From assembly GCF_036227225.1 (NCBI RefSeq), contig NZ_CP109444.1, positions 8,599,501 to 8,663,500 on the forward strand: a stretch of 64,000 nt of DNA, read 5' to 3'. A program made the translations under genes and the position numbers. This stretch comes from Streptomyces sp. NBC_01478. GTDB lineage: Bacteria; Actinomycetota; Actinomycetes; Streptomycetales; Streptomycetaceae. Shown piece by piece: positions 17,706 through 58,243 of this stretch (position 1 is the first letter of the stretch; the number at the start of each line of letters is the position of its first letter). The notes beneath the pieces are model-generated. The model was not told the origin of the DNA. It searched no databases and was given only the letters and a program-made list of their open reading frames with translations.

Positions 17706-17712
17706 CCCGTCG

Positions 17713-17761
17713 GATCCCGGATCCCGGATCCCGGATCCCGGATCCCGGATCCCGGATCCCG
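17713..17761 (+). repeat. Seven perfect tandem copies of GGATCCC
   Basis: Seven uninterrupted heptamers start 8 bases after the methyltransferase stop; a degenerate eighth (GGGTCGC) follows. Each unit holds the palindrome GGATCC, so the array can fold back on itself in many registers. It marks the junction between the core block and the metal island and may also act as a terminator. Confidence 0.93.
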
Positions 17762-17792
17762 GGTCGCGTGACCGGGGCCACAAATCCGTGCC

Positions 17793-17819
17793 GGAACTCG
17801 GGACCTCTCCTGTCCGACT
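17793..17819 (+). promoter_or_regulatory. ECF-type promoter 1 (CopA operon)
   Basis: GGAACT at 17793-17798 and CGACT at 17815-17819, separated by exactly 16 bases, 68 bases before the ATG at 17888. The same pair with the same spacing recurs at 22597-22623, 26023-26049 and, on the other strand, 25976-25950. GGAAC is the usual ECF-sigma -35 element. Assignment to the SigC-like factor encoded at 21944 is inference. Confidence 0.8.
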
Positions 17820-17887
17820 CCTGAAGTGGTGCGGCTCGATCCCAGGCAATCCGCCGCGTGCCGTACGACGCGAAGTGGAGACCGGTG

Positions 17888-18166
17888 ATGGACGAGTCCC
17901 GACAATCCTCCTCAGGCGCCGGTGCGGTGCTCCGGAGACTGGTGCCCCCTCCCGCCCTGTGCGGCTTCCTTCTGCTGCTGACGGCGATGTTCGGCATCTC
18001 GTACGCCGTCGGGTCCGGCGTCGGACCCGTCGCGCCCGGCATGCACGGCACCAGCGGCACGGGTGGCACCGGCGGCGGCGTCGGCATCACCGGCGGGACC
18101 GGTGACACCGGAGACAGTGGCACCGGCGGCATGGGCGGCATGGACATGCACGGCGGAGGCAACTGA
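17888..18166 (+). CDS. Small membrane protein with Gly/Met/His-rich tail
   Basis: A 92-residue protein with one membrane helix (about 28-45, CGFLLLLTAMFGISYAVG) and a low-complexity extracellular tail full of Gly, Thr and Ser, ending GGMGGMDMHGGGN, a typical soft-metal (Cu+) binding composition. The ATG at 17888 has GGAG at the right distance; a GTG codon directly before it is an alternative. It overlaps the CopA gene by one base (TGATG), so it should work with the pump, perhaps as an extracytoplasmic copper acceptor. I know of no named family. Confidence 0.75.
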   Translation: MDESRQSSSGAGAVLRRLVPPPALCGFLLLLTAMFGISYAVGSGVGPVAPGMHGTSGTGGTGGGVGITGGTGDTGDSGTGGMGGMDMHGGGN

Positions 18167-20436
18167 TGGGCGCCGACTCGGTGGCCGTTCTCGTGACGAC
18201 CGATCTGGCCGTCGGCGGTATGACCTGCGCGGCCTGTGTGAAGCGGGTCGAGAAGAAGCTCGGCAAGCTGGACGGGGTCACGGCGACCGTCAATCTGGCC
18301 ACCGGGCGGGCCAGGGTGAGCCATCCGCCGGAGATCGGCGCCGCGGAACTCGTCGCGGCGGTGGAGCAGGCCGGCTATACGGCGGCCCTTCCCGCGCCGC
18401 CGAAGGAGCGGCGGCGTGCCGACGGGGATCAGGAACACGACGAGTCCGAGCGGGCGCGGCAGGAACGTGACCGGCTGCTGTACACGGCGCTGCTCGCGGT
18501 TCCCGTCCTGGTGCTGTCGATGGTGCCCGGCCTCCAGTTCCGCAACTGGCAGTGGCTGTGCTTCGCGCTGGCCGCGCCGGTCGCCGTATGGGGTGCGTGG
18601 CCCTTCCACGTGCGGGCGGTGCGCGGGCTGCGGCACTCGGCGGCGACCATGGACGCGCTGGTGTCCCTCGGCGTCGTGGCGTCCTTCGGCTGGTCGGCCT
18701 ACGCGCTCTTCCTCGGCGGCGCCGGTGATCCCGGGATGCGGATGCCGTTCAGTCTGGTGCCCGCCGCCTCGGACGGTGTCGCGCACATCTATCTCGAAGC
18801 GGCCGTCGGCGTACCGCTGTTCGTGCTGGCCGGCCGTTTCCTGGAGGCACGGGCCCGGCGCGGTACCGGGGCGGCGCTGCGCTCGCTCGCCCGGCTCGCG
18901 GCCAAGGATGTGTCGGTGCGTGAGGGGGATGCCGAACGGCTTGTGCCCATCGAGGAGTTGACGGTGGGTCAGGTCTTCGTCGTGCGGCCCGGTGAGCGGG
19001 TCGCCACCGACGGGCAGGTGGCGGAGGGCAGTTCGGCCGTGGACCTGTCCCTGGTCACCGGCGAGAGCGAGCCGGTCGAGGTCGGGCCGGGCTCGGCCGT
19101 CGTCGGCGGTGCCGTCAACTCCGGTGGGCTGCTGCTGGTGCGGGCCACCGCCATCGGCGCGGACACCCAACTCGCCCGCATCGCGCGCCTGGTGACCGAG
19201 GCACAGACCGGGAAGGCGAAGGCGCAGCGGCTGGCCGACTCGGTCGCCGGGGTCTTCGTACCGGTCGTGCTGGCCCTGGCCTTCACGACGCTCGGCTTCT
19301 GGCTCGGTGCCGGGGCCGAACCGCAGGCCGCGCTCACCGCGTGCGTGGCCGTGCTCGTCGTGGCCTGCCCGTGTGCGCTGGGTCTGGCCACCCCGACCGC
19401 GCTGATGGCCGCGACCGGCCGGGGTGCCCAACTGGGCGTCCTCGTCAGCGGTCCGCAGGCACTGGAAGGGCTCCGGCATCTCGACACCGTCGTCCTCGAC
19501 AAGACCGGCACGCTCACCTCGGGGCACATGACCGTCGCCCGCGTCACGGCCGTACCGGACGGGCTGGGGAAGGACGCGGTGCTGCGGCTGGCCGGCGCGG
19601 TCGAGCGGGGCTCGGAGCATCCGCTGGGCCGGGCGATCGTCGCGTACTCCCAACGCGCCCTGACCGAAGGGGTGTTGCCGGACGTGAGCGAGTTCAGCGC
19701 CCTGCCGGGGAAGGGCGTGCGAGGCCGCGTCGAGGGGCGGCTGGTCGAAGTCCTGGCCCTGGAGGGCGAGTTGCCCGGCGCCCTCATGGACGCCCTGCCC
19801 GCGGCGGAGGCCGCCGCGCACACCCCGGTACTGGTACGGGTGGACGGGGTGACCGAGGCGCTGATCGAGATCGGTGACGTCGTACGCCCCGGAAGCCACC
19901 GCGCCGTCGAGCAGTTGCGACGCCTCGGTGTACGGCCCGTGCTCGCCACCGGCGACCGGGAGGCACCCGCGGCGGCCGTCGCGTCGGCGCTGGGCATCGA
20001 CGAGACGCACGCCCGCTGCTCGCCCGAGGACAAGGCCGATCTCGTACGGGAGTTGCAGGAGCGGGGCCACCGGGTGGCCGTCATCGGCGACGGTGTGAAC
20101 GACGCCGCCGCACTCGCCCTCGCCGACCTCGGCATCGCCATGGGCACCGGCACCGACGTGGCCATCGGGGCCGCCGACGTGACCCTCGTCCGCGGCGACA
20201 TCGAAGCCCTCGCGGACGCCGTACGGCTGGCCCGGCGCACCCTGGCCACCATCCGCACCAATCTCGTGTGGGCCTTCGGCTACAACGTCGTGACCGTGCC
20301 GCTCGCCATGGTCGGTTTGCTCAACCCCATGCTCGCCGCCGCGGCCATGTCGGTCAGCTCGGTGCTGGTCGTCGCCAACAGCCTGCGGCTGCGCGCCTGG
20401 CAGCCGACGAATGCCGCCGGGAGGCGTACCCGATGA
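18166..20436 (+). CDS. copA: Copper-translocating P1B-type ATPase
   Basis: Pumps Cu+ out of the cytoplasm with ATP. A heavy-metal-binding domain with GMTCAAC (18-24) is followed by eight membrane helices, the actuator TGESEP motif, the ion-binding CPC motif (401-403) in helix 6, the phosphorylation site DKTGT (Asp445), SEHPLGRA and GDGVNDAAALA. The last helices carry YN near LNPMLAAAAMSVSS, the MxxSS signature of the Cu+ (P1B-1) subgroup. Length 756 is typical. It starts on the stop codon of the Met/His-tailed protein and overlaps the PCuAC-like gene by 4 bases: a three-gene operon under ECF-type promoter 1. Confidence 0.93.
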   Translation: MGADSVAVLVTTDLAVGGMTCAACVKRVEKKLGKLDGVTATVNLATGRARVSHPPEIGAAELVAAVEQAGYTAALPAPPKERRRADGDQEHDESERARQERDRLLYTALLAVPVLVLSMVPGLQFRNWQWLCFALAAPVAVWGAWPFHVRAVRGLRHSAATMDALVSLGVVASFGWSAYALFLGGAGDPGMRMPFSLVPAASDGVAHIYLEAAVGVPLFVLAGRFLEARARRGTGAALRSLARLAAKDVSVREGDAERLVPIEELTVGQVFVVRPGERVATDGQVAEGSSAVDLSLVTGESEPVEVGPGSAVVGGAVNSGGLLLVRATAIGADTQLARIARLVTEAQTGKAKAQRLADSVAGVFVPVVLALAFTTLGFWLGAGAEPQAALTACVAVLVVACPCALGLATPTALMAATGRGAQLGVLVSGPQALEGLRHLDTVVLDKTGTLTSGHMTVARVTAVPDGLGKDAVLRLAGAVERGSEHPLGRAIVAYSQRALTEGVLPDVSEFSALPGKGVRGRVEGRLVEVLALEGELPGALMDALPAAEAAAHTPVLVRVDGVTEALIEIGDVVRPGSHRAVEQLRRLGVRPVLATGDREAPAAAVASALGIDETHARCSPEDKADLVRELQERGHRVAVIGDGVNDAAALALADLGIAMGTGTDVAIGAADVTLVRGDIEALADAVRLARRTLATIRTNLVWAFGYNVVTVPLAMVGLLNPMLAAAAMSVSSVLVVANSLRLRAWQPTNAAGRRTR

Positions 20437-20936
20437 ACGGACCGCACCCCTGGCGCCCGACCCGCCGCCGGCTCACCGACACCCTGTTCGCCGCGGTCGC
20501 GCCCGTCGCCGTGTGCGGCCTCGCCCTGGCCGGACTGACGGCCTGGGCCGGCGCCGGGAAGGCGGGCAGCCCGGCCCGGATCGCCGTCTCGAACAGCCGG
20601 GTCTACCTGCCGAACGGCTCCGGCGCCGACACCGCCGCGTTCTTCGACGTCTCCAACCTCGGCGGCGCGGACGACCGTCTGGTCGGCGTGACGTCCTCCG
20701 CCACCGGCGGGGAGATCACCCTCGGCCGCCGTCGCACGGGCGGCTACCGGGCCGACGTGGCGTCCGTCGTCGTATCGGCGGGCCGTGAACTGTCCATGTC
20801 CCCGGACGGCCTGGACGTGACCCTTCGGGCGCCGGCGGGTTGGCGGGCGGGCGACCTCGTGCCGTTCACGCTGCACTTCGCACACAGCGGGGCGGTCAGG
20901 ACGATCGCGGTGGTGGTCCGGCGGCCCGAACAGTGA
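20433..20936 (+). CDS. PCuAC-like copper chaperone domain protein, ligands degenerate
   Basis: A 167-residue exported or membrane-anchored protein: N-terminal helix (about 15-40) then a domain resembling PCuAC (DUF461) copper chaperones, recognisable in VYLPNGSGADTAAFFDVSNL, ADDRLVGVTSSATGGEITL and WRAGDLVPFTLHF. In true PCuAC proteins an H-M...H-x-M set binds Cu+; here the first His/Met positions read TLGRRRTGG and the later HxM is replaced by DVTLR, leaving a single Met (SMSPDG). It may have lost copper binding or act as a structural partner. The ATG overlaps the copA stop (ATGA). Confidence 0.78.
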   Translation: MNGPHPWRPTRRRLTDTLFAAVAPVAVCGLALAGLTAWAGAGKAGSPARIAVSNSRVYLPNGSGADTAAFFDVSNLGGADDRLVGVTSSATGGEITLGRRRTGGYRADVASVVVSAGRELSMSPDGLDVTLRAPAGWRAGDLVPFTLHFAHSGAVRTIAVVVRRPEQ

Positions 20937-21033
20937 CAGCTTCTTCGCGATCGCGAAGGGGATGCGTGGTGCGGGCGGGAGTGTATCGCCGAACGGTCGA
21001 GGCCCCTCTCCAAGGGGCCTCTCCACTAGAAGT

Positions 21034-21068
21034 CGGGCGGGAGGCCCGTTGAGTTCCCGCCCGTTTTT
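21034..21068 (+). terminator. Intrinsic terminator with T5 tail
   Basis: CGGGCGGGA (21034-21042) pairs with TCCCGCCCG (21055-21063) over a 12-base loop and is followed by TTTTT (21064-21068), an E. coli-like terminator unusual for this GC content. It closes the CopA operon. A 16-bp palindrome CTTCGCGATCGCGAAG lies upstream at 20943-20958. Confidence 0.88.
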
Positions 21069-21107
21069 GTGGCCTGGGTCACATGCTGTGGATCGAGTGT
21101 GATGGGC

Positions 21108-21127
21108 TGTGGGTTTGCGTACCCACA
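21108..21127. promoter_or_regulatory. Inverted repeat TGTGGGT-N6-ACCCACA
   Basis: A perfect 7-bp inverted repeat, 37 bases upstream of the Met/His-rich membrane protein gene, at a position suited to an operator. The half-site is unlike the inward-facing C-tract/G-tract arrangement of CsoR operators. It is not conserved upstream of the second copy of this gene at 57459. Confidence 0.4.
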
Positions 21128-21164
21128 CGAGACGGCCGGCGTCCTGGTGCAAGGATGATGCGCC

Positions 21165-21788
21165 ATGAGGCCAGGGCGGTGTTCTCGCGCGATACGGGCC
21201 GCGGTGTTCGCGGCCGTCTGCGTGCTGCTCGCGTCCCTGGGCCACGTCATGATGTCCGGGAACCACGTGCCCGCGTCGGCACTGGCCGCCGGGCTCGTCG
21301 CGACCGGTGCCGCGGGCTGGTGCCTGACGGGCCGTGAGCGCGGGCTCCCGCTGATCGTGACGGTCGTGGTCGCCGCCCAGGCGGTGCTCCACTCGGCGTT
21401 CTCGTATGCCTGGTCGGCAGCCGGCGCAACGGCCGCCACGGACACGGCCATGGGCTCGATGCGGATGGACTCCATGGACATGGGCGCGAGCCACATGGAC
21501 GCCACGCCCATGGGCGCCCCGTCGACCGGCATGCTCATCGCCCACCTGCTCGCCGCGCTGCTGTGCGGGCTCTGGCTGGCCCACGGCGAGAAGGCCGCGT
21601 TCCGCATCCTGCGCGCCGTCGCCGGCCGGCTGCTGGCTCCGCTACGCCTGCTGCTCGCCCTGCCCGTGCCCATGGACCGCCCGCGCATCCGTGGGCGCCG
21701 TCTCTCGTCGGACCGGGCGCCGCGCCTTCTCCTCCTGGTCCACGCGATCACCTCGCGGGGGCCGCCGGCCCGGACCGCTGTCGTCTGA
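21165..21788 (+). CDS. Met/His-rich polytopic membrane protein, copy 1
   Basis: A 207-residue protein with about four membrane helices: residues 10-30 (AVFAAVCVLLASLGHVMM), 36-52, 60-80 (LIVTVVVAAQAVLHSAF) and 122-140 (IAHLLAALLCGLWLAHGE). The loop at about 95-118 has repeated Met (MGSMRMDSMDMGASHMDATPMG), a probable copper-sensing segment. The cytoplasmic tail ends DRAPRLLLLVHAITSRGPP and is nearly identical in the second copy at 57459. It lies directly upstream of a SigC-like ECF gene, as does copy 2. I infer a metal-sensing membrane regulator, perhaps an anti-sigma factor, although no classical zinc anti-sigma motif is present. Confidence 0.75.
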   Translation: MRPGRCSRAIRAAVFAAVCVLLASLGHVMMSGNHVPASALAAGLVATGAAGWCLTGRERGLPLIVTVVVAAQAVLHSAFSYAWSAAGATAATDTAMGSMRMDSMDMGASHMDATPMGAPSTGMLIAHLLAALLCGLWLAHGEKAAFRILRAVAGRLLAPLRLLLALPVPMDRPRIRGRRLSSDRAPRLLLLVHAITSRGPPARTAVV

Positions 21789-21917
21789 GGACAGCCGGTA
21801 TCCCGAGGCCGCCTGTGAGGCATGCCCCGGGCCACGGCCCCACGTCCGCGCAAGCGCCGTAGGGCCGTCTCTTCCCACTCGCCGGACCGCCCGCGCTTCC
21901 GCGTGCCCTGGTCCGGA

Positions 21918-21966
21918 TCACGGATGACCGAGAAGGACTCCAGGTGATCACTCCTGCCCTGCCCGC
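21918..21966 (+). repeat. 49-bp block identical to 58195-58243
   Basis: Spans the leader and first codons of the SigC-like gene, with no mismatch to the block before the second SigC-like gene. It includes a 7-codon open frame (MTEKDSR, start 21924) whose TGA overlaps the sigma GTG start, and the ribosome-binding site AAGGA. Confidence 0.9.
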
Positions 21967-22585
21967 CGCGCGCGGCAAAGGCGAGAAGAAGTCGGCAGCT
22001 CTCGACGAGGCGATCACCGCGTGGGCGCTCGCCGCCCGAGGCGGTGACGCGAACGCGGTCGACCACTTCGTCCGGGCCCTGCAACGCGACGTCCAGCGGT
22101 ACGTGGCCCATCTCTGCGGCGATCCGCAGGCCGTCGACGACCTGGCGCAGGACACGTTCCTGCGCGCGCTCGGCAGCCTGCACCGCTTCGAGGGCCGCTC
22201 CTCGGCGCGTACCTGGCTGCTGTCGATCGCCCGCCGGGCCGTCATCGACAGCTACCGGTACGCGGCCGCCAGACCCCGGCTGTCCGACGTACCGGACTGG
22301 CAGTTGGCGATCGAACGGGCCCAGCCGGTCGACCTGCCCGGCTTCGACGACGGTGTCGCGCTGCTCGACCTGCTGGCCTCGCTGCCGGACGAGCGCCGCG
22401 AGGCCTTCGTTCTGACCCAGTTGCTGGGCCTGCCCTACGCGGAGGCGGCCGAGGCGAGCGACTGCCCGATCGGCACGGTCCGCTCCCGCGTGGCACGGGC
22501 CCGGGCGGCCCTGACGGAGCTGCTCGCCGAGGACGGCGAGCCCACCGCGCCGGCGGTCCCGGCGCGGCAAGGCGTGCCGGCGTAG
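21944..22585 (+). CDS. SigC-like ECF RNA polymerase sigma factor, copy 1
   Basis: A 213-residue ECF sigma factor. Region 2 (about 30-100) includes VDDLAQDTFLRALGSLHRFEGRSSARTWLLSIARRAV; region 4 (about 145-195) includes LPDERREAFVLTQLLGLPYAEAA and CPIGTVRSRVARARAAL. These blocks closely resemble M. tuberculosis SigC (ARTWLLAIAR, EALLLTQLLGLSYADAA, CPVGTIRSRVARARDALL). The GTG start follows AAGGA. In mycobacteria SigC is tied to copper acquisition and an isonitrile lipopeptide operon. Here it sits between the CopA operon and the ABC importer, and I infer that it reads the four GGAACT-N16-CGACT promoters. Confidence 0.9.
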   Translation: MITPALPAARGKGEKKSAALDEAITAWALAARGGDANAVDHFVRALQRDVQRYVAHLCGDPQAVDDLAQDTFLRALGSLHRFEGRSSARTWLLSIARRAVIDSYRYAAARPRLSDVPDWQLAIERAQPVDLPGFDDGVALLDLLASLPDERREAFVLTQLLGLPYAEAAEASDCPIGTVRSRVARARAALTELLAEDGEPTAPAVPARQGVPA

Positions 22586-22595
22586 CGCCAAGTGG

Positions 22596-22623
22596 CGGGA
22601 ACTCACGGGGAGTTCACCCCGAC
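22596..22623 (+). promoter_or_regulatory. ECF-type promoter 2 (metal-complex importer operon)
   Basis: GGGAACT (22596-22602) and CGACT (22619-22623) with a 16-base spacer, 57 bases before the ATG at 22681 and 11 bases after the sigma gene. Same elements and spacing as the other three sites in this island. Confidence 0.82.
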
Positions 22624-22680
22624 TACTGGACCGGGTGGCGGACGGTCGCCCATGTACCGAGTGGAACTTGGAGACTTGCG

Positions 22681-23748
22681 ATGCGTTCTCGTGTGTGGGG
22701 ATGTACGGCGGCCGTCGTGCTCGGCGGTCTGCTGGCGGCGGGCTGCGGTGCCGGAGCGAAGGGGACGGCCGAGGTGAGCGCCGGGAAGGCCGCCTCGGGT
22801 GACTACCCGGTGTCCGTCACGGACTGCGCGGGCGCCCGCACCACCTTCTCCGCCGCCCCGAAGAAGATCGTCACCAGCAACGCCTCCAGCCTGGAGCTGT
22901 TGCTCCGCCTCGGCGCCGGCGACAAGGTGATCGGCACCGGATTCCCGCCCGGCAAGGGCACGTTGACCGGCACGCTCGACGCGCAGGCGCAGCAGGTGAA
23001 GGTGCTCAGCCAGAGCGTGATCCCCAAGGAGAAACTGCTCGGCTCGGGCGCCGACCTGTACATCGACACCTTCGCGTCGATGGGCGGGATGGGCAACGGC
23101 ATGGGCGACGCGCCGACCGCCGAGGAGTTCGAGGCGGCCGGGATCAGCCACATCTACCTGAAGTCCACCGCCTGCGCGGCGCAGAGCAAGAGCACGGTGA
23201 CCGACCTGTCCGCCGTCGAGGCCGACATCACCTCCCTCGGCGCGGTCACCGGCACGAGCACCAAGGCGAAGGAGCTCGTCGACGGGATGAAGACGAAGGT
23301 GGCCGCGGTCCAGAAGGCGGTCGGCGCCACGGCGGAGAGCGAGCGCCCGACCTACTTCTTCTTCGACTACGACTCCGGCACCAAGCAGCCCACCGTCGTC
23401 TGCAACCGCCAGGTCGCCAACGCGGTGATCACCCTGGCCGGTGCCCGCAACGTCTTCGCCGACTGCGACGCCGACTACAAGCAGGTCGGCTGGGAGGACG
23501 TGATCGCCAAGAACCCGGACTGGATCCAGCTCGCGGTCCGCAACCGGGGGAGCGACGCGGCGAACGACAAGGCGTTCGCCGAAGCGGAGAAGTGGCTGAA
23601 GTCCAACGCGGCGACCAAGGGCCTGACGGCCGTCGAGGAAGGCCACTTCCTGTGCATCGGCTCCGAGCCGACCACCATCGCCGGGGTCGAGAACGCCGAC
23701 ACGGTCGAGGAGATCGCCAAGACCCTCTACCCGGGCAAGGTCGGCTGA
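22681..23748 (+). CDS. Substrate-binding lipoprotein with Met-rich loop
   Basis: A 355-residue lipoprotein of the siderophore/cobalamin-binding (type III, BtuF/FecB) class. The lipobox LLAAGC places the lipidated Cys at 22. The fold is visible in PKKIVTSNASSLELLLRLGAGDKVIGTG and WEDVIAKNPDWIQLAVRNRG. A loop with Met134, Met137 and Met141 (SMGGMGNGMGD), next to the strand expected near the ligand cleft, would suit a soft-metal complex. With the following permease and ATPase it forms an importer; I infer uptake of a copper-isonitrile complex. It starts 95 bases after the sigma gene and has its own ECF-type promoter. Confidence 0.88.
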   Translation: MRSRVWGCTAAVVLGGLLAAGCGAGAKGTAEVSAGKAASGDYPVSVTDCAGARTTFSAAPKKIVTSNASSLELLLRLGAGDKVIGTGFPPGKGTLTGTLDAQAQQVKVLSQSVIPKEKLLGSGADLYIDTFASMGGMGNGMGDAPTAEEFEAAGISHIYLKSTACAAQSKSTVTDLSAVEADITSLGAVTGTSTKAKELVDGMKTKVAAVQKAVGATAESERPTYFFFDYDSGTKQPTVVCNRQVANAVITLAGARNVFADCDADYKQVGWEDVIAKNPDWIQLAVRNRGSDAANDKAFAEAEKWLKSNAATKGLTAVEEGHFLCIGSEPTTIAGVENADTVEEIAKTLYPGKVG

Positions 23749-23750
23749 CG

Positions 23751-24818
23751 GTGGCCTCCTTGCTGGTACGGCCCGAGGCGCAGCCGGAGACACGCGGCCT
23801 GCGGGCGGGGCCGCTGGCCCTCGTCCTCGCCGTGGCACTGCTCGCGGCACTCACGGCCGCGGTCGCCCGGGGCTCGACGTCCATCCCGCCCGGCGAGGTG
23901 TGGGGCGTGGTGTGGCGACGCCTCTCCGGCGAGGCAGCGCGACCCGGCACGAACGACCTGATCGTCTGGCAACTCCGGCTCCCGCGCGCCCTGTTGGCGG
24001 CCCTGGTCGGTGCCGGACTCGGTCTCGTCGGTACGGCCGTACAGGCGCTGGTGCGCAATCCGCTCGCCGACCCGTATCTGCTGGGCATCTCCAACGGTGC
24101 CTCGCTGGGCGCGGTCGCGGCGATCGTGCTCGGCCTCGGGGCGGGCGGTGCGCTCGGACTGGGCCTGTCCGGCGCGGCGTTCGTGGGAGCCCTGGCCACC
24201 TTCGCGCTCGTCTGGGCGACCGCCCGCCGGGGAGGCGGATTCGCCCCGCTGAGGCTGGTGCTGGCGGGGGTCGCGATCGGCCAGTTCCTGTCCGGCTTCA
24301 CCAGCTACCTGGTCCTCCAGGCGGGGGACGAGCAGCAGACCCACAGCGTGCTGTTCTGGCTCATGGGCAGCCTCAGCGGGGCGAGTTGGCCCCTGCTCGC
24401 CGTGCCCGCCGTCGCCGTACCGGCCGCCTGGCTCTGTCTCCAGGCCCGCGCCCGCGGACTGAACGCCCTCCTCATGGGCGACGAGACCGCGGCCGGGCTC
24501 GGCGTCGACGTCACCCGGCTGCGGCGCGAACTGTTCACCGTGACAAGCGTGTTGACCGGCGTCCTGGTCGCGGTCTCCGGCGCGATCGCGTTCGTCGCGC
24601 TGATGGTGCCGCACGTCTGCCGCCTGGTCGTCGGCGGCGACCACCGCCGACTGCTGCCCCTCTCCGCGCTGTTCGGCGCCGTACTGCTGGTGGTGGTCGA
24701 CATCGTCTGCCGTACGGCGATGGACACACAGGAGCTGCCGGTCGGCGTGGTGACCTCGCTGCTCGGGGCTCCGGCCCTGCTGTATCTGCTCGATCGGCGT
24801 CTGGGGAGCGACAGTTGA
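23751..24818 (+). CDS. FecCD-family ABC permease
   Basis: A 355-residue permease of the iron-siderophore/B12 (FecCD/BtuC) family with about ten membrane helices. Diagnostic stretches are IVWQLRLPRALLAALVGAGLGLVGTAVQALVRNPLADPYLLGISNGASLGA and SGAIAFVALMVPHVCRLVVGGDHRRLLPLSALFGA. The GTG at 23751 is 2 bases after the lipoprotein stop, so it is coupled to it. FecCD permeases move metal-chelate complexes rather than free ions, which supports uptake of a metallophore. Confidence 0.93.
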   Translation: MASLLVRPEAQPETRGLRAGPLALVLAVALLAALTAAVARGSTSIPPGEVWGVVWRRLSGEAARPGTNDLIVWQLRLPRALLAALVGAGLGLVGTAVQALVRNPLADPYLLGISNGASLGAVAAIVLGLGAGGALGLGLSGAAFVGALATFALVWATARRGGGFAPLRLVLAGVAIGQFLSGFTSYLVLQAGDEQQTHSVLFWLMGSLSGASWPLLAVPAVAVPAAWLCLQARARGLNALLMGDETAAGLGVDVTRLRRELFTVTSVLTGVLVAVSGAIAFVALMVPHVCRLVVGGDHRRLLPLSALFGAVLLVVVDIVCRTAMDTQELPVGVVTSLLGAPALLYLLDRRLGSDS

Positions 24819-25624
24819 GGATCGACATCGAGGACCTGCATGTCGCGTACGCCGGACGTACGGTCGTGGCGGGCGCCCATCTCATGGCGGCCGAGGGCGA
24901 GATCACCGGCCTGGTCGGCCCGAACGGCAGCGGCAAGTCCACGCTCCTGCGCACCGTCTACCGGCATCTACGGCCCACCGCCGGACGGGTGTTGCTGGCC
25001 GGCGCCGATCTGCGGGAGATGACCCCGGCGCGGTCGGCCCGGCATGTGGCCGCTCTGCCGCAGGAGCGGGGGAGCGACTTCGAGTTGAGCGTGCGCGAGG
25101 TCGTCGCCATGGGGCGCACCCCCTACAAGCGGGCCTTCGCGGGCGAGGACGCCACCGACCGGGACATCGTCGCCCGCGCCCTCGCCGACGTCGGCATGGC
25201 CGGCCACGCCGGACGCCGTTTCACGGCCCTGTCCGGCGGCGAACGCCAACGCGTCCTGCTGGCCCGGGCGTTCGCGCAGCGCCCGGACGTCCTGGTCCTG
25301 GACGAACCGACCAACCACCTCGACATCCGCCACCAGGTGGAGCTGCTCGCCCTGTTGCGCGTCCGGCGCCGTACGACCCTGGTGTCGCTGCACGACCTCA
25401 ACGCCGCCGCGTCGGTCTGTGACCGGCTGCATGTCCTGCACCAGGGAGCCGTGGTGGCTTCCGGACCGCCGCGCGAGGTGCTCACGCCGGGGTTGATGTC
25501 GGCGGTGTTCGGCGTGCGGGCGGCGGTGATCGACCATCCGCTGACCGGCGACCCGTTGATCGCCTTCGACCATCGGGCGCCCGCCGGCGCGGAGTTGGCC
25601 GAGGCGGTGGAGACAGGCGGGTGA
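24815..25624 (+). CDS. ABC transporter ATPase of the metal-complex importer
   Basis: A 269-residue FepC/BtuD-type ATPase that drives the preceding permease. Walker A GPNGSGKST, signature LSGGERQRVLLARA, Walker B DVLVLDEPTNHLD and the switch His in SLHDLNAAAS are all present. It starts with TTG at 24815, overlapping the permease stop (TTGA); GGGGAG is the ribosome-binding site. Its stop codon lies inside the left arm of a bidirectional terminator. Confidence 0.92.
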   Translation: MRIDIEDLHVAYAGRTVVAGAHLMAAEGEITGLVGPNGSGKSTLLRTVYRHLRPTAGRVLLAGADLREMTPARSARHVAALPQERGSDFELSVREVVAMGRTPYKRAFAGEDATDRDIVARALADVGMAGHAGRRFTALSGGERQRVLLARAFAQRPDVLVLDEPTNHLDIRHQVELLALLRVRRRTTLVSLHDLNAAASVCDRLHVLHQGAVVASGPPREVLTPGLMSAVFGVRAAVIDHPLTGDPLIAFDHRAPAGAELAEAVETGG

Positions 25625-25677
25625 GCCGGGACGGGCAGGAGGACGACGGGGGTGACGCCGTCCTGCCCGTCCCGGCT
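25624..25677. terminator. Bidirectional terminator between importer ATPase and copZ
   Basis: A perfect 17-bp stem, AGCCGGGACGGGCAGGA (25624-25640) with its complement at 25661-25677, around a 20-base loop that can itself pair. It separates two convergent genes and overlaps the ATPase stop codon by one base. Confidence 0.9.
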
Positions 25678-25680
25678 CGG

Positions 25681-25896
25681 TCAGGCGGCGACCGGGTCGG
25701 CGACGGTGTACCCGGCCTCGACGACGGCCGCGCGCAGCCGCGCGTCGTCGAGGTCCGTGCCGTGCACGGTGACGGAGTTCGCGGCGACGTCGACCACGAC
25801 CTCGCTCACGCCCGCCACCTCGGACACCTCCTCCCTGACGCTCGCCGCGCAGTGCTCGCAGGTCATGCCGGTGACGGTGTACCGCTTCTGAGCCAT
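25681..25896 (-). CDS. copZ: CopZ-type copper chaperone
   Basis: A 71-residue HMA-domain protein. MTCEHCAASV (residues 11-20) contains the Cu+-binding CxxC; the ferredoxin-like fold continues through VAGVSEVVVDVAANSVTVHG and ends AAVVEAGYTVADPVAA. It delivers cytosolic Cu+ to CopA. The ATG at 25896 has AGGAG 7 bases upstream (read leftward). It runs opposite to its neighbours and has its own ECF-type promoter. Confidence 0.93.
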   Translation of the reverse strand: MAQKRYTVTGMTCEHCAASVREEVSEVAGVSEVVVDVAANSVTVHGTDLDDARLRAAVVEAGYTVADPVAA

Positions 25897-25949
25897 GGGG
25901 AACTCCTGTTGTCCTGAGGGTCGGTTGTTGTCTCGGGGATCGCTTCAGT

Positions 25950-25977
25950 AGTCGGCCGAGCGGGGCGCGGAGTTCCC
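25950..25977 (-). promoter_or_regulatory. ECF-type promoter 4 (copZ)
   Basis: Read leftward: GGGAACT at 25977-25971, 16 bases, then CGACT at 25954-25950, 53 bases before the copZ ATG. It is back-to-back with promoter 3, the two -35 elements being 44 bases apart. Confidence 0.82.
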
Positions 25978-26021
25978 TCCTTCGGCCCGGACATCGCTCA
26001 CTGTTTTGCCGGCCGCCGCCC

Positions 26022-26049
26022 GGGAACTCACCCCGGATTTCCCCCGACT
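26022..26049 (+). promoter_or_regulatory. ECF-type promoter 3 (exporter/biosynthesis operon)
   Basis: GGGAACT (26022-26028), 16 bases, CGACT (26045-26049), 53 bases before the GTG at 26103. Promoters 2, 3 and 4 share the full GGGAACT/CGACT text. This one should drive the MFS, amidotransferase, P450 and possibly the isocyanide-synthase genes. Confidence 0.82.
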
Positions 26050-26102
26050 TGTGGGACGAGGCTGCTGTCCGGCAGCCCACCCGTGAGGGGAGGGGCACAG
26101 AG

Positions 26103-27530
26103 GTGACGCACCGAAGTCCCGGTTCGGAACAGCCCGGCCGAGCATCCGCCGGCCCGGCACAGGAGGACCGCTGGCTGCTGGTGGCGGTGGCGGGCGTGCT
26201 GTCGTTCATCGCGATGCTCGACATGAACATCGTCAACGTGGCCCTGGCGGACATCGCCGACGGTCTGCACGTCTCCGCCGCGACCGCGCAGTGGGCCGTG
26301 CTGGGCTATCAACTCCCCGTCGTGGCCCTGCTGTTGCCGGTCGGCCGCTGGCTGGACGGGGTGGGGCCGCGCTCGGCGGTGCTGATGGCGGCCGCCGGGT
26401 TCGGACTGTGCAGCGCCCTTGCCGCCGCCGCTCCCTGGGCGGCCTGGCTGATCGCGGCCCGCCTCGCGCAGGGCGCGTTCGGGGCGGTGCTGTTCGTCCT
26501 GATGCCGGTGCTCGCGATCCTTTCCGTACGACCGGAGTCGAGGGCGCGGGCGATGAGCGTCCCCGCGACGCTCGGCCCGCTGGGCGCGGTGACCGGACCG
26601 GCGGTGGGCGGGCTGCTGCTCGACCATCTGGGCTGGCGGGCCGTCTTCCTGGTCAAGATCCCGTTCTGCGTGCTCGCGCTGGTCGTCGCCTGGAAGGCGA
26701 TGCCGAGGAGCGGCAGGCTGCGGGCACCCGATCGCCGGTCCATGACCGACGCCCTGCTGGTGGCCGCCGGCGTCGCGGCCCTGCTGCTGGCGCTCACGCT
26801 GACGGCGGACGACCCGGCCTGGTCGCTCCTCGCCCTGGCCGCCGTACCGCCGCTGAGGCGGTGGCTGCGCGGCCCCGGCGGACGTCCGGTGACCGGCGTA
26901 CTGCGCACAACGGGACTGTTCCCGGCCCATGGGGCGGTGCTGGCCCTCGCGGCAGGCTTCGCCGCCATGCACTACGTCGTCGCCCTGCACCTCCAGCGCG
27001 ACGACGGGCTGAGCGCCACCACGACCGGCCTGACCGTGCTCGCCTTCCCGCTCGGCATGGGTCTGGCGGGCCCGTTCGGCGGACGGCTCGCCGACCGGTT
27101 CGGCGCGTGGCCGGTCGCGGTCACCGGCGCCGCGGTCACCGCCGCAGGACTGCTCCTGCTCGTCCCGCTCGGCGACGGCTGGTCGACGGCGGACGTGGCC
27201 TGGCGGCTGGCGCTGGCCGGCACCGGCATGGGGCTGTACGGCGGTCCGACCCAGGCCCTGGTCATGGGCGCCGCGCCGCCCGACCGGACGGCGACCGTCG
27301 GTTCGACGGTGCAGCTCGCCCGCAGCCTGGGCTTCACCCTCGGCCCGGCCCTGGCCACCACTGCCTGGGCGTTGGCCGGCGGAGCACGGGCGGGGCTCGC
27401 CCTGGCCGCCACGGCCGCCTGTCTCGCCGTAGCCCTGCTCGCCCTGTCCGGCGGGAGGTCCACGCCCGTGCCAGCGAAGCCAGAGAAGCCCGAGAAGACC
27501 GCCGATGCGGCGCCCGCCGCCCACCACTGA
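26103..27530 (+). CDS. MFS drug/metabolite exporter (DHA2-like, 14 helices)
   Basis: A 475-residue proton-driven exporter with about 14 membrane helices. The first helix has LDMNIVNVALADI, equivalent to the DHA2 signature LDxTIVNVALP, and motif C appears as GPLGAVTGPAVGGLL. The GTG at 26103 is preceded by a GAGGGGAGGGG stretch and fits family length better than the earlier frame at 26049, which would start inside the promoter. It is the first gene of the exporter/biosynthesis operon, 15 bases before the amidotransferase, and probably exports its product. Confidence 0.88.
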   Translation: MTHRSPGSEQPGRASAGPAQEDRWLLVAVAGVLSFIAMLDMNIVNVALADIADGLHVSAATAQWAVLGYQLPVVALLLPVGRWLDGVGPRSAVLMAAAGFGLCSALAAAAPWAAWLIAARLAQGAFGAVLFVLMPVLAILSVRPESRARAMSVPATLGPLGAVTGPAVGGLLLDHLGWRAVFLVKIPFCVLALVVAWKAMPRSGRLRAPDRRSMTDALLVAAGVAALLLALTLTADDPAWSLLALAAVPPLRRWLRGPGGRPVTGVLRTTGLFPAHGAVLALAAGFAAMHYVVALHLQRDDGLSATTTGLTVLAFPLGMGLAGPFGGRLADRFGAWPVAVTGAAVTAAGLLLLVPLGDGWSTADVAWRLALAGTGMGLYGGPTQALVMGAAPPDRTATVGSTVQLARSLGFTLGPALATTAWALAGGARAGLALAATAACLAVALLALSGGRSTPVPAKPEKPEKTADAAPAAHH

Positions 27531-27545
27531 CCCAGGAGCCTCCTC

Positions 27546-29366
27546 ATGTGCGGAATCACCGGCTGGGCGTCCTTCCGTCACGACGCCCGCACCCAGGCCC
27601 CGGTCATCGAGGCCATGACCGCCACCCTCACCCCGCGCGGCCCCGACGCCGGAGGCGTGTGGCTCGGCGAGCACGCCGCGATCGGCCACCGCCGGCTGTC
27701 CGTCATCGACCTGGCGGGCGGCGTGCAGCCGATGACCGACCGGCGGTCCGACACGGTGCTCAGTTACAGCGGTGAGGTCTACAACCACCATCAACTCAGG
27801 TTGGAACTACGCGGGTTGGGGCACGAGTTCCGCACCCGCAGCGACACCGAAGTGGTGCTGCGCGCCTACGCCGAGTGGGGCGAGGCGATGGCCGACCGAC
27901 TGGAGGGCATGTTCGCCTTCGCCGTCTGGGACGAGCGCGCCCGGCGCCTGCTGCTGGTCCGCGACCGGCTCGGCGTAAAACCCTTGTACTGGGCGGCGGT
28001 TGACGGCGGCCTCGCCTTCGCGTCCGAGCCCAAGGCCCTGTTCGCGCACCCGGAGATACAGCCCCGCGTGGACGCCGACGGCCTCCGGGAGGCGTACAGC
28101 CTGCTCTTCAACACCGGGCCGACCGTGTGGTCCGGCGTCCGCGAGGTCGAGCCCGGCGGCCTGCTCGTCCTGGACCGGGACGGCGTCCGAGAGCGCCGTT
28201 ACTGGCAGTTGGAGGCGGGCGCCCACGGCGACGACCAGGACACGACCGTCGAGCGGATCCGCGAGCTCGTCGGAACGGCCGCGCGCAGCCAACTCGAAGC
28301 CGACGTCCCCCTGTGCAGCCTGCTCTCCGGCGGCCTCGACTCCACCGTCCTGACCGCCCTGCTCGCCGACGAACTCCGGCTGCGCGAGGGCCAGGACGCC
28401 CGTATCCGCTCGTACGCCGTCGACTACAGCGACCAGGCGTCACGGTTCACGGGGGACGTGCTGCGCACCGGCCACGACACCCCGTTCGCCACCGAGGCCG
28501 GCGCCTTCATCGGCACCGACCACAGCACCGTCGTCCTCGACCCGCTCGCCCTGCTCGACCCCGAGCACCGCAAGGCGGTCGTCGTGGCCCGTGACTCGCC
28601 GATCGGCGTCGGCGACATGGACACCTCGCTGTACCTCCTCTTCGGCGAGATACGACGGCACTCGACCGTCGCCCTGTCCGGCGAGGCGGCGGACGAGGTC
28701 TTCGGCGGCTACCCCTGGTTCCACCATCCCAAGGCACTCGCCGCGGACACCTTCCCCTGGCTGCTGGTGACGGGCGACGAGGCCGCGATGCCGCTCAACC
28801 CCGAACTCGACCTGCGCATAGGGGAGTTCCGTGCCGACACCTACCGCAGCGCGCTGGCCGCCGTACCGCATGCGGGCGACGAGACACCCGCCGAACACCG
28901 GCAGCGCGAGCTGCAGCACCTCTCCCTGACCCGCTGGCTGCGCCAACTCCTGCACCGCAAGGACCGGTTGAGCATGGCGCAGGGCCTGGAGGTCCGGGTC
29001 CCGTACTGCGACCACCGGCTCGTCGAGTACGCCTTCAACACCCCCTGGGCGCTGAAGAGTCACGACGGCCGGGAGAAGAGTCTGCTGCGCGCGGCCGGTA
29101 CCGGCCTGGCACCGGAGTCGGTCCTGTGGCGCCCCAAGAACCACTACCCGGCCACCCACCACCCCGACTACAACCGCGGCCTCCAGAGCATGGCCCGCGA
29201 CGCCCTCGCCACCGAACAGGTCCGCGCCCTGGCCGACGAGACCCGCATCAAGCCCAGCCTCGACACCCCGCCCGACCAACTGGAGTGGGGCCACCGCCTG
29301 CGGCTGGAGCGCGTCGTCGACCTCGCCCTCTGGCTCGACCACCACCAGCCCGAACTCGCCCTCTGA
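27546..29366 (+). CDS. Asparagine-synthetase-like glutamine-dependent amidotransferase
   Basis: A 606-residue class II glutamine amidotransferase. Cys2 (MCGITGWASF) is the glutaminase nucleophile; the N-terminal domain (1-210) has RRLSVIDLAGGVQPM and SYSGEVYNHHQLR. The synthetase domain (about 225-590) has the ATP-pyrophosphatase loop LLSGGLDSTVL and LSGEAADEVFGGYPWFH. Such enzymes convert a carboxylate to a carboxamide through an acyl-adenylate. Within an isocyanide-synthase operon I infer amidation of an isocyano-amino-acid carboxylate rather than asparagine formation, though a housekeeping-type AsnB cannot be excluded. It is 12 bases before the P450 gene. Confidence 0.9.
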   Translation: MCGITGWASFRHDARTQAPVIEAMTATLTPRGPDAGGVWLGEHAAIGHRRLSVIDLAGGVQPMTDRRSDTVLSYSGEVYNHHQLRLELRGLGHEFRTRSDTEVVLRAYAEWGEAMADRLEGMFAFAVWDERARRLLLVRDRLGVKPLYWAAVDGGLAFASEPKALFAHPEIQPRVDADGLREAYSLLFNTGPTVWSGVREVEPGGLLVLDRDGVRERRYWQLEAGAHGDDQDTTVERIRELVGTAARSQLEADVPLCSLLSGGLDSTVLTALLADELRLREGQDARIRSYAVDYSDQASRFTGDVLRTGHDTPFATEAGAFIGTDHSTVVLDPLALLDPEHRKAVVVARDSPIGVGDMDTSLYLLFGEIRRHSTVALSGEAADEVFGGYPWFHHPKALAADTFPWLLVTGDEAAMPLNPELDLRIGEFRADTYRSALAAVPHAGDETPAEHRQRELQHLSLTRWLRQLLHRKDRLSMAQGLEVRVPYCDHRLVEYAFNTPWALKSHDGREKSLLRAAGTGLAPESVLWRPKNHYPATHHPDYNRGLQSMARDALATEQVRALADETRIKPSLDTPPDQLEWGHRLRLERVVDLALWLDHHQPELAL

Positions 29367-29378
29367 GGAGCCTCGTTC

Positions 29379-30617
29379 ATGACCGTCCAAGAGCCTGTGG
29401 CCGAGCCCGTACCGCTGATGGGCTGCCCCTACAAGGCCGACCCCTATCCCCTCTACGAGGAGATGCGCGAAGCGGGCCCGGTCCACCGCGTCCTCTTCCC
29501 CAGCGGTGTACGGGCGTGGCTCGTCACCGGCTACGAAGCCGCCCACTCCGCCCTGAACGACGACCGTCTCGGCAAGAACCACGAGCGCGGCAACGACAGT
29601 TGGCGGGCCCGCGCCTCGATCATGCCGGAGCCGCAGCACTCCCGGCTCCAGGTCCACCTGCTCCACCAGGACCCGCCGCAGCACACCCGCATGCGGAGCT
29701 TCGTGACCGACGCGTTCACGCCCCGCCGGATCGAGGAACTCCGCCCGCGCTTCCAGGAGTTGGCGGACGCACTCGTCGACGCCCTGCCCCCGTCCGGCCC
29801 CGTCGATCTCGTGTCGGGCTTCGCCGCCCGCTTCCCCTTCCAAGTGCTCGCCGAAGTCATCGGCCTGCCACGGGAGTTGGCGGACCGCTTCGACCGCGAC
29901 TGGGGCAAGGTCGTCCAGCCGGTCGGCCCCACCGACCCCGGACGGCCGCGCTACGAAGCCCGCCTGCACGGCCTCCAGAGCTATATCGCCGAGGTCGTCG
30001 CCCACAAGCGCGAACACGGGGAGGACGACCTGCTCAGCCGCCTCGTCGTGGCCCGTGACCGCCGCGAACTGTCCCAGGAGGAGCTGGACTCGATGATCTT
30101 CCAGCTCCTGGTCGCCGGCCAGGAACCGGTCACCAACCAGATCACCACCGCCCTGATCGCCCTCTTCCGCAACCCGGACCAGCTCACCCGCCTGCGCGAC
30201 GACCCCGCTCTCCTGCCCCGCGCGGTCGAGGAACTCCTGCGCTACGACAGCGCCTTCGAGCTGACGACCTGGCGCTTCTTCGACCAGGACAGCGACCTGC
30301 ACGGCACCGAGGTCCCGGCCGGCGACTCGGTGATCGTCTCCCTGTGCGCGGCCAACCGCGACCCGCGCCGCTTCCCGGACCCCGACACCCTCGACCTCGA
30401 CCGCTCCCCGAACCCCCACCTGGCCTTCGGCCACGGCATCCACTTCTGCCCCGGCGCCGCCCTCGCCCGCGCCGAACTCCAGACCGCGCTCGGCACCCTC
30501 CTCGCCCGCCTCCCCGGCCTCCAACCGGCCGTCAGGGACGAGGACATCGAGTGGATCCCGGCCGTCCTGGGCCGCGGCACGAACCGTCTCCCCGTCGGCT
30601 ACGACCGACGCCTCTGA
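29379..30617 (+). CDS. Cytochrome P450
   Basis: A 412-residue bacterial class I P450. The haem ligand is Cys357 in FGHGIHFCPGAAL; the ExxR motif is EELLR; the PERF-like region is RRFPDPDTLDLDR. The I-helix reads LLVAGQEPVTNQ (243-254): the usual acid-alcohol pair (E/D-T) after AGx is E249-P250-V251, so the conserved Thr that assists oxygen activation is missing. That occurs in P450s doing phenol coupling or other unusual chemistry. The gene lies between the amidotransferase and the isocyanide synthase. Electron partners are not encoded nearby. Confidence 0.93.
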   Translation: MTVQEPVAEPVPLMGCPYKADPYPLYEEMREAGPVHRVLFPSGVRAWLVTGYEAAHSALNDDRLGKNHERGNDSWRARASIMPEPQHSRLQVHLLHQDPPQHTRMRSFVTDAFTPRRIEELRPRFQELADALVDALPPSGPVDLVSGFAARFPFQVLAEVIGLPRELADRFDRDWGKVVQPVGPTDPGRPRYEARLHGLQSYIAEVVAHKREHGEDDLLSRLVVARDRRELSQEELDSMIFQLLVAGQEPVTNQITTALIALFRNPDQLTRLRDDPALLPRAVEELLRYDSAFELTTWRFFDQDSDLHGTEVPAGDSVIVSLCAANRDPRRFPDPDTLDLDRSPNPHLAFGHGIHFCPGAALARAELQTALGTLLARLPGLQPAVRDEDIEWIPAVLGRGTNRLPVGYDRRL

Positions 30618-30634
30618 CCCGGGCCCCCGGATGA

Positions 30635-30662
30635 CCGGGGCGGGCGAGAACGCCCGCCCCGG
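30635..30662 (+). terminator. Strong hairpin between P450 and isocyanide synthase genes
   Basis: A perfect 12-bp G/C stem, CCGGGGCGGGCG (30635-30646) with CGCCCGCCCCGG (30651-30662), closed by AGAA. It begins 18 bases after the P450 stop and ends 93 bases before the next start. It may be a terminator, an attenuator, or a processing/stability hairpin setting the level of the last gene. Confidence 0.7.
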
Positions 30663-30755
30663 CTCCGCCTGACCCGCCCCACCGGCACACCGCGCCCGGC
30701 CACGACCTGCCACGGCGCCATGCCGTCATGCCCGCACGTCTCCCGGAGGAACACC

Positions 30756-31688
30756 ATGCCGTCGACAACCACGCCGGACACGCTCCCCACGAGCACCGGC
30801 GCCGCGATCCTGAACCTGCTCCTGCCGCACCACCGCACGACCGACCGGAGCCACGCCCCGGCCGAGGCGTTCCCTCGACAACTGGGCCGGATCGCCGACT
30901 TCGTCCGCGCGGGCGCCCCCATCGCCTTCACCCTGCCCGGCTTCCCGTGCAAGTCCCCCAACCCGGCCAAGGTCCTCGGCCACCTCCCCGACATGGGCGA
31001 ACGCCTCTCCCTCACCTTCCTGAACACCCTGTGCACGGAGATCGAGCGCGTCTACCCACCGGGCGCCCGCATGGTCATCTGCTCCGACGGCCACGTCTTC
31101 GGCGACCTCATCGGCGTCCCCGACGGGCACATCGACGCCTATGCCGACGAACTCCGCCTACTCATAAGTGATTTGGGCCTGGAGAGACTGTCGGTCTTCG
31201 ACCTGCGCGACGTCCTGGGCGATCTGCCGCACGACGCGAAACGCGTCCATGTCCACGAGCGGTACGCACCCACCCTCGACGCCCTGCGCACCGAGATCCG
31301 CGCCGACGACAACGCGCTGGCGCTGTACCGGGGGATCACCCGGTTCCTCGTGGAGGACACCGCCGACCACCGCGGCACCCGCTCGGCGCTGCAACGCGCC
31401 TGCCGGCAACGGGCGTACGGCGTCATCCAGCGCAGCCGCGCCTGGGGCGACCTCGTCGCCGACCACCACCCCCACGCCGTACGCCTGTCCATCCACCCCC
31501 AGCCCGTCGGCGCACCCAAGTTCGGCATCCGCCTCCTCGACGCGCCCGATGCCTGGACCACGCCGTGGCACTCCGCGGCCCTGCGCCGCGAGGACGGGAC
31601 CTGGACGCTCATGCCCCGGGACCGGGCGACCCGATGGGGCCGGGTGATCGAGCGCGACGGCAGACCGAGTCACTTCGAGCAGGCCTGA
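30756..31688 (+). CDS. Isocyanide synthase, PvcA/DIT1 family
   Basis: A 310-residue enzyme recognised as the PvcA/DIT1/isocyanide synthase family by FVRAGAPIAFTLPGFPCKSPNPAKVLGHLPDMGERLSLTFL, VYPPGARMVICSDGHVFGD and RSRAWGDLVADHHPHAVRLSIHPQP. Family members turn the alpha-amino group of L-Tyr or L-Trp into an isonitrile with ribulose-5-phosphate as carbon donor. The start at ATG 30756 follows CGGAGGA. No PvcB-type Fe(II)/2-oxoglutarate oxygenase, the usual partner that makes a vinyl isonitrile, is nearby; instead an amidotransferase and a P450 precede it. Isonitriles bind Cu+ strongly, matching the copper genes around it. Confidence 0.9.
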   Translation: MPSTTTPDTLPTSTGAAILNLLLPHHRTTDRSHAPAEAFPRQLGRIADFVRAGAPIAFTLPGFPCKSPNPAKVLGHLPDMGERLSLTFLNTLCTEIERVYPPGARMVICSDGHVFGDLIGVPDGHIDAYADELRLLISDLGLERLSVFDLRDVLGDLPHDAKRVHVHERYAPTLDALRTEIRADDNALALYRGITRFLVEDTADHRGTRSALQRACRQRAYGVIQRSRAWGDLVADHHPHAVRLSIHPQPVGAPKFGIRLLDAPDAWTTPWHSAALRREDGTWTLMPRDRATRWGRVIERDGRPSHFEQA

Positions 31689-58100: not shown

Positions 58101-58194
58101 CGACAGCAGGCACCCCGGGGCCGCTCGTGCGCGCCCCGGGCCCCGGCCGTACCCCCGCGCCGCTCCGGGCGCCGCAGGACGGCCGGCTCCCCTT

Positions 58195-58243
58195 TCACGG
58201 ATGACCGAGAAGGACTCCAGGTGATCACTCCTGCCCTGCCCGC
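58195..58243 (+). repeat. 49-bp block identical to 21918-21966
   Basis: Leader and first codons of the second SigC-like gene, with no mismatch to copy 1, including the 7-codon MTEKDSR frame (start 58201) that ends on the sigma GTG. The identity stops at codon 8 of the sigma gene. Confidence 0.9.

Follow-up and report, generated by a model that had tools for sequence, protein, structure and literature searches.

A putative copper-starvation unit with a predicted promoter motif and a SigC-like sigma factor in Streptomyces sp. NBC_01478

We investigated a stretch of 64,000 nucleotides (positions 8599501-8663500, in the following called the window) from the 12.12-Mb single-contig genome of Streptomyces sp. 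NBC_01478. Between 17.8 and 31.7 kb of the window it contains a gene island which, judged from its sequence, is likely a self-contained unit for conditions of copper starvation, of the hazimycin chalkophore type. The unit would be controlled by a SigC-like extracytoplasmic function (ECF) sigma factor through the string GGAACTC-N15-CGACT, a newly found, predicted ECF-type promoter motif. The chalkophore class and the role of SigC in copper acquisition are already published; new here is the regulatory finding, i.e. the motif, the switch shared between pathways and the partner of the sigma factor.

Gene content of the island

The island comprises, in this order, MetS, CopA, PCuAC, MetMem, the SigC-like sigma factor (Sig), the substrate-binding lipoprotein (SBP), FecCD, an ABC ATPase, CopZ on the reverse strand, MFS, an AsnB-like gene, P450 and the isocyanide synthase:

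17888..18166, plus strand: MetS, membrane protein of 92 amino acids with Met/His-rich tail (translation)
18166..20436, plus strand: CopA-type P1B ATPase with HMA domain and CPC, also DKTGT and GMTCAAC
20433..20936, plus strand: PCuAC copper chaperone, membrane-anchored (PF04314, 52.2 bits)
21165..21788, plus strand: MetMem, predicted four-helix membrane protein of 207 amino acids with Met-rich loop and conserved C-terminal RGPP
21944..22585, plus strand: SigC-like ECF sigma factor (sequence similarity)
22681..23748, plus strand: SBP of siderophore/cobalamin type with Met-rich stretch (PF01497)
23751..24818, plus strand: FecCD permease (family match)
24815..25624, plus strand: ABC ATPase of the importer, start codon uncertain (PF00005)
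25681..25896, minus strand: CopZ-like copper chaperone, HMA protein (PF00403)
26103..27530, plus strand: MFS exporter, GTG start proposed from promoter position (family match)
27546..29366, plus strand: AsnB-like amidotransferase (best solved relative the hydroxyamidotransferase 7ylz)
29379..30617, plus strand: cytochrome P450 with heme motif FGHGIHFCPG (family match)
30756..31688, plus strand: PvcA/DIT1-type isocyanide synthase (PF05141), open reading frame (ORF) start possible at 30720

All genes named in an earlier note on this DNA were found, i.e. the synthase, P450, amidotransferase, MFS exporter, FecCD importer with its Met-rich lipoprotein, CopA, CopZ, two Met-rich membrane proteins and the SigC-like sigma factor. 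It had missed PCuAC, the importer ATPase, five exact motif copies, a second sigma-MetMem pair and a Zur/ZnuABC block.

The synthase is the one PF05141 gene of the whole genome. It scored 263 bits against this family (curated cut-off 26.4) and 285 bits against the PvcA structure 3e59, and missed the cut-off of the NCBIfam equivalog for L-tyrosine isonitrile synthase (PvcA) with 281 vs 600 bits. By sequence it is a member of the PvcA/DIT1 family, yet outside that exact equivalog; its closest named relatives are from Streptomyces (S. xylophagus, 92%). The AsnB-like protein matched the hydroxyamidotransferase 7ylz with 557 bits vs 161 bits for asparagine synthetase B. The translated SBP carries a lipobox-like LAAGC and the stretch SMGGMGNGMGD. 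MetS matched no Pfam family, and the FcoT thioesterase (PF10862), a marker of isonitrile lipopeptide systems, is absent from this genome.

A hazimycin-type gene set of isocyanide synthase, P450, amidotransferase, exporter and importer is thereby present in one locus. The hazimycin study of Matsuda and co-workers reportedly describes a tyrosine-derived, copper-binding diisonitrile of Kitasatospora and Streptomyces with importer and exporter genes around the synthesis genes. The island set of synthase, P450, amidotransferase, MFS and FecCD importer fits this description. A PvcB-like partner was not seen in the island, in keeping with an acid-derived product like the carboxamide that hazimycin reportedly is. 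In print, the hazimycin chalkophore appears as a title cited in PMC11085572 (Matsuda et al., J Antibiot 2024, 77:228).

The promoter motif and the sigma factor

An intergenic reading of the island first revealed the repeated string, and an exact scan was then run. The genome holds 8 exact copies, 5 of them in the window and every one of these inside the island:

17793..17819, plus strand: promoter-like site before MetS-CopA-PCuAC, exact, 68 nucleotides (nt) between its end and the start codon
21031..21057, minus strand: promoter-like site between PCuAC and MetMem, exact, facing the 3' end of PCuAC
22598..22624, plus strand: promoter-like site before the importer operon, exact, 56 nt
25950..25976, minus strand: promoter-like site before CopZ, exact, 53 nt
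26023..26049, plus strand: promoter-like site before MFS-AsnB-P450-synthase, exact, 53 nt

Four of the five sites precede copper operons by 53-68 nt. At the other three exact genomic sites (5479072, 7841838, 10470487) the ORF listing revealed no recognisable copper gene; no family search was made there.

Conservation of the motif was followed at the loci of synthase relatives. Six peptide patterns of the synthase, run against 84,980 species genomes, yielded 92 such loci, and the best 80 of the 92 were used. We searched from 450 bases upstream to 60 downstream of each start with at most two mismatches and took the reversed pattern as control. The motif was found in 62 of 63 SBP upstream regions (34 exact; control 2), 48 of 60 for MFS (24 exact; control 3), 11 of 12 for CopZ (7 exact; control 3) and 5 of 9 for CopA (3 exact; control 0). 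It was rare ahead of operon-internal genes (synthase 0/78, P450 3/78, AsnB 3/56, Sig 1/49, MetMem 0/25). The distance between motif and SBP start had a median of 56 and quartiles of 56-58 (n = 62); the wider consensus ahead of SBP reads CGGGAACTc-N15-CGACTACTGG.

That the sigma factor is SigC-like, as the earlier note had stated, was borne out: it is closest to M. tuberculosis SigC among the solved ECF factors, as expected of a SigC/ECF36 member, and NCBIfam ranks SigC first. Against M. tuberculosis SigC, whose two domains were solved separately, it scored 93.9 bits for region 2 (best match) and 60.6 bits for region 4 (fifth-best), the best other ECF factor of known structure reaching 62.7 bits over both regions. 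M. tuberculosis SigC is assigned to ECF36 in a passage of PMC8999054. According to the sections of PMC7924339 on SigC, it activates ctpB as well as the nrp operon and works against copper starvation, its copper-acquisition regulon including an isonitrile operon and a P1B ATPase. The sigma-C regulon of C. glutamicum is described in part of PMC7337898 as switched on by copper deprivation.

To relate motif and sigma factor we used a panel of 150 congeneric genomes, in which SBP was counted at E <= 1e-50 and Sig at E <= 1e-40. A Sig relative is present in 106 of them (131 hits), and the sigma factor is therefore not confined to isonitrile makers. The exact string GGGAACTC-N15-CGACT occurs 141 times across the panel, and 53 of these sites lie at most 20 kb from one of the Sig hits (expected 0.57). 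Genomes without PF05141 gave 29 of 95 (expected 0.35), i.e. the motif is tied to the sigma factor independently of the synthase. Near Sig, the controls amounted to 1 of 118 for an N14 spacing variant and 1 of 71 for the reversed pattern.

MetMem was found directly upstream of the sigma gene in all 30 Sig loci that were inspected out of the 131 hits; 16 of these 30 belong to genomes without PF05141. It matched no Pfam or NCBIfam family, hence no known anti-sigma domain, and comparison with solved structures gave no match. Using the window protein as query, 94 of 96 homologues had the RGPP-bearing tail, and 67 of 91 parsed loops contained at least 4 Met, the loops being crudely defined. H27, H76, E58, R59 and P201 are among the invariant residues. 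An AlphaFold model of low confidence (mean predicted local distance difference test score 67.9, predicted template modelling score 0.38) places helices at 5-31, 37-56, 61-95 and 121-164 plus a further, short helix at 185-196, with the Met-rich segment at about 96-120 unstructured. From the charge pattern, judged by eye, the Met-rich loop would lie outside and the RGPP tail inside, which would be the layout of a sigma-holding membrane sensor. MetMem is accordingly named here as a candidate copper sensor/anti-sigma factor. For M. tuberculosis, the passages on sigC in PMC7924339 give the gene as monocistronic and state that no anti-SigC factor has been identified. The island sigma gene differs in being preceded by the Met-rich membrane gene; it resembles sigC, which the same passages call not autoregulated, in that no self-directed promoter site was seen.

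A motif on the opposite strand, at most 300 bases upstream of MetMem, occurs in 22 of 89 loci, often ahead of a divergent gene. The backward site of the island (21031-21057) could be a source of antisense RNA or a relic; for C. glutamicum sigma-C, part of PMC7337898 reports action on the antisense strand of a promoter.

The window contains a second pair of this kind:

57459..58100, plus strand: second MetMem paralogue (similarity to MetMem)
58221..58820, plus strand: second SigC-like sigma factor, 80% identical to the first (similarity to Sig)

Adjacent to this pair (57459-58820) no copper genes were recognised, and no motif within 2 mismatches was found nearby.

Co-inheritance and other pathways on the same switch

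Genes at the 80 synthase loci were counted by tblastn at >= 55% identity covering at least half of the query, with >= 50% identity for MetMem and PCuAC. P450 was present in 76 loci, SBP, FecCD and ABC in 64 each and the whole importer in 63, followed by MFS (57), AsnB (55), Sig (48) and MetMem (31). PCuAC (17), CopA (13) and CopZ (12) were less frequent. The flanks reach 10 kb, so that genes before the importer are undercounted, which contributes to the low numbers of CopA and PCuAC. Where the upstream flank measured 9 kb or more (70 loci), the importer was found in 61 and Sig in 46. The full importer is missing from 17 of the 80 loci, some of which are cut short. Kitasatospora loci (L056-L062) share the island gene set, their importer lying downstream in opposite orientation; since 12 loci (Kitasatospora and kin) keep it nearby in this orientation, the linkage has outlived rearrangement.

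The same association was seen between genomes of the panel, for which 45 of 47 PF05141 rows were used after dropping two second fragments of broken genes. Synthase and importer SBP occurred together in 26 genomes, the synthase only in 9, SBP only in 2 and neither in 113 (Fisher 2.5e-19). The unit for making, exporting, importing and handling that the earlier note had proposed is supported as co-inherited by the counts at the 80 loci, and its neighbours recur in related genomes.

Two loci of the myxobacterium Archangium (L029, L039) carry a synthase 74-77% and a P450 85-87% identical to those of Streptomyces, the other island genes sought being absent there; this looks by sequence like a transfer of the pair between phyla. 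The AsnB-like gene went undetected in nine loci with synthase and P450 (L021, L052, L053, L061, L063, L065-L067, L069), which likely make product variants. Directly after the synthase of the window, on the opposite strand, lies a zinc-uptake block of Zur and ZnuABC (31982-36017, minus strand). Because Zur, ZnuA and ZnuB are kept in 2 of the 80 loci each, namely the closest two relatives, the block is outside the copper unit; no exact motif lies ahead of its genes.

For comparison with isonitrile lipopeptide (SF2768/INLP) pathways we selected 20 regions by Sig and/or motif and 10 by FcoT. These pathways resemble the island in export, FecCD importer and CopA/PCuAC, and in Streptomyces loci also in sigma factor, partner and promoter; they differ in forming the isonitrile by a TauD-family enzyme on an acyl substrate or one bound to a nonribosomal peptide synthetase (NRPS), with TauD, FcoT, ligase and NRPS. 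Relatives of TauD and FcoT were found in 15 of the 30 regions (ten picked for FcoT). Sig and MetMem accompany them in nine (L196, L200, L201, L204, L209, L232, L236, L237, L238), with an exact motif in seven and one mismatch in two. Two more (L234, L235) have exact motifs with Sig absent from the region. L230, which comes from another family of the class, has a Sig of 52% and lacks a MetMem hit, and all its sites carry one mismatch; L229 has a single one-mismatch site, and L231 and L233 have neither Sig nor motif. By Pfam, L204 and L196 encode MFS, KAS III, a carrier protein, TauD, FcoT, an adenylate ligase and a C-A-T-reductase NRPS, which we take to be the isonitrile-lipopeptide set.

Across the panel, 20 of 21 FcoT rows were used, one weak sub-cut-off row being dropped. 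Eight of these 20 genes lie at most 20 kb from Sig (expected 0.08), and 9 of the ten best-scoring ones are near Sig (7) or an exact motif (G033, G108). Genome G058 combines both kinds in separate Sig islands, PF05141 lying 4.8 kb from the one Sig and FcoT 6.4 kb from the other. By sequence, one sigma/promoter system is common to two isonitrile pathways of unrelated biosynthesis. The regulatory convergence expected by the earlier note is hereby seen at the sequence level, in that the same sigma factor, MetMem and promoter occur at TauD-type isonitrile-lipopeptide clusters. FecCD of the lipopeptide regions L232, L234 and L235 is 48-49% identical to that of the window, compared to at least 74% in synthase loci with importer. 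The importer therefore appears to go with the chalkophore, the switch being common to both pathways.

Further gene sets were found in these surroundings. A CoA-transferase-III fusion is present in five regions, with an adenylate ligase by Pfam in L197, L198, L199 and L205 and by tblastn in L213. A methyltransferase, a LAL_C2/ATP-grasp ligase and an MFS protein lie under the motif and beside Sig in L202 and L207. From their sequence context both may be further metallophore cassettes. An island of the CoA-transferase-III type occurs in G064, which has a second Sig island with PF05141. PepSY_TM membrane proteins are under the motif in L203, L210 and L212 and a ferric-reductase-like protein in L202; reduction of Cu(II) would go well with isonitriles that bind Cu(I).

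Proposed function and alternative explanations

The following sequence of events would account for the island. When copper becomes scarce at the membrane, MetMem would release the sigma factor, which would then transcribe four units, i.e. MetS-CopA-PCuAC, the importer, CopZ and MFS-AsnB-P450-synthase. The synthase would make the isonitrile from tyrosine, the precursor used by PvcA-type enzymes, and the P450 would couple two isonitrile units to a dimer. As the best solved relative of the AsnB-like enzyme is the hydroxyamidotransferase 7ylz, this enzyme would turn carboxylates into amide or hydroxamate. The MFS protein would export the product, the Cu(I) complex would re-enter via SBP, FecCD and the ABC ATPase, and CopZ, CopA and PCuAC would supply exported cuproenzymes with the copper. 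Different chalkophore pathways would plug into the sigma module as into a hub.

The fungal xanthocillin/crm clusters have unrelated regulators and are not known to include a FecCD importer. Parts of PMC5974471 and PMC9381783 show that these clusters have a DIT1-type synthase and a copper-starvation response in common with the island.

The earlier note had regarded the ATPase as an efflux counterweight to the importer. This part of its interpretation appears less fitting, in contrast to the co-inherited unit, the SigC-like sigma factor and the convergence by sequence, which were supported. The promoter ahead of MetS-CopA-PCuAC is the one that also precedes the uptake and synthesis genes, which argues for copper delivery, i.e. 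metallation of exported cuproproteins, as the predicted role of CopA. Detoxification is disfavoured by this promoter and by its recurrence at 5 of 9 other CopA loci (control 0).

Several observations weigh against the proposed unit and its switch. The loci share kinship, and their counts are non-independent because of this relatedness. Per genome, synthase and Sig co-occur weakly (both, synthase only, Sig only, neither: 32/3/74/41; p = 0.0014), which is due to Sig being common, and 25 of the 45 PF05141 matches are at most 20 kb from Sig. NCBIfam SigC, at 175.4 bits ahead of PRK12535 (170.5) and a third family (94.9), stays under its equivalog cut-off of 219. At two mismatches the window holds 8 sites vs 7.1 in shuffles, such that the case for the motif stands on exact copies, position and conservation. 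Over the whole genome there was no enrichment at one mismatch over the reversed pattern (111 vs 149), nor for the looser GGAAC-N17-CGACT (54 vs 75 reversed). The 88 of 141 exact panel sites away from Sig are probably mostly background. Finally, no motif in the direction of transcription was found ahead of MetMem-Sig (0/89 at one mismatch or less), and autoregulation was thus not seen.

This last observation would also suit a different ECF factor reading the motif with the linked SigC-like gene as a passenger, as would the motif-bearing isonitrile regions L234 and L235, in which Sig is absent within 19 kb. The accumulation of exact sites near Sig, 53 of 141 compared to single control hits and including genomes without PF05141, makes such a passenger improbable. 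It is slightly less so, albeit still unlikely, that the isonitrile is mainly a copper-starving antibiotic, with copper genes protecting the producer and import being secondary. The exporter is of the drug-efflux MFS type, and hazimycins were reportedly found as antibacterials. A pure weapon needs no uptake, however, and the dedicated importer equals the synthesis genes in conservation (63/80) and has the best-conserved promoter copy (62/63). Antibiotic and uptake roles can moreover coexist.

Service to another metal, e.g. zinc via the adjoining Zur/ZnuABC, is very unlikely. The block does follow the synthase directly, and part of PMC7924339 reports zinc effects in an isonitrile-lipopeptide mutant of M. 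marinum. The motif-controlled handling proteins are, however, all copper types (HMA/CPC ATPase, PCuAC, CopZ), no exact motif precedes the zinc genes, and we rejected the zinc reading on the lack of conservation of these neighbours (2/80). Least credible of all is that copper homeostasis and isonitrile synthesis are unrelated units that became neighbours by chance. Copper-handling genes do lie beside Sig without a PF05141 gene in many genomes, and CopA and PCuAC are found in 13 and 17 of the 80 loci, partly owing to the flank limit. Against this, the exact promoter is common to both halves, and importer and synthase co-occur across species. We retain the copper-starvation unit as the preferred explanation.

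Beyond the island, a wider role of Sig and MetMem as a general copper-starvation switch of Streptomyces is a tentative proposal, for which we see somewhat less than even chances. MetMem would be its extracytoplasmic sensor/anti-sigma factor, and the switch a socket for hazimycin-type and lipopeptide pathways and at least two undescribed cassettes (CoA-transferase-III fusion with adenylate ligase, 5 loci; methyltransferase, ATP-grasp amino-acid ligase and MFS, 2 loci). Within the open-licence literature, subscription papers lying outside, we found no sigma factor for Streptomyces isonitrile chalkophores, no shared promoter and no Met-rich partner. The island provides a concrete predicted regulon for an isonitrile chalkophore, with four operons under one motif. 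How M. tuberculosis senses copper deficiency is listed as an open question in PMC7924339, in the part on SigC, and the Streptomyces sigma-MetMem pair makes this question testable in harmless strains. If the proposal is true, promoter and sigma factor would be a handle for mining new copper metallophores.

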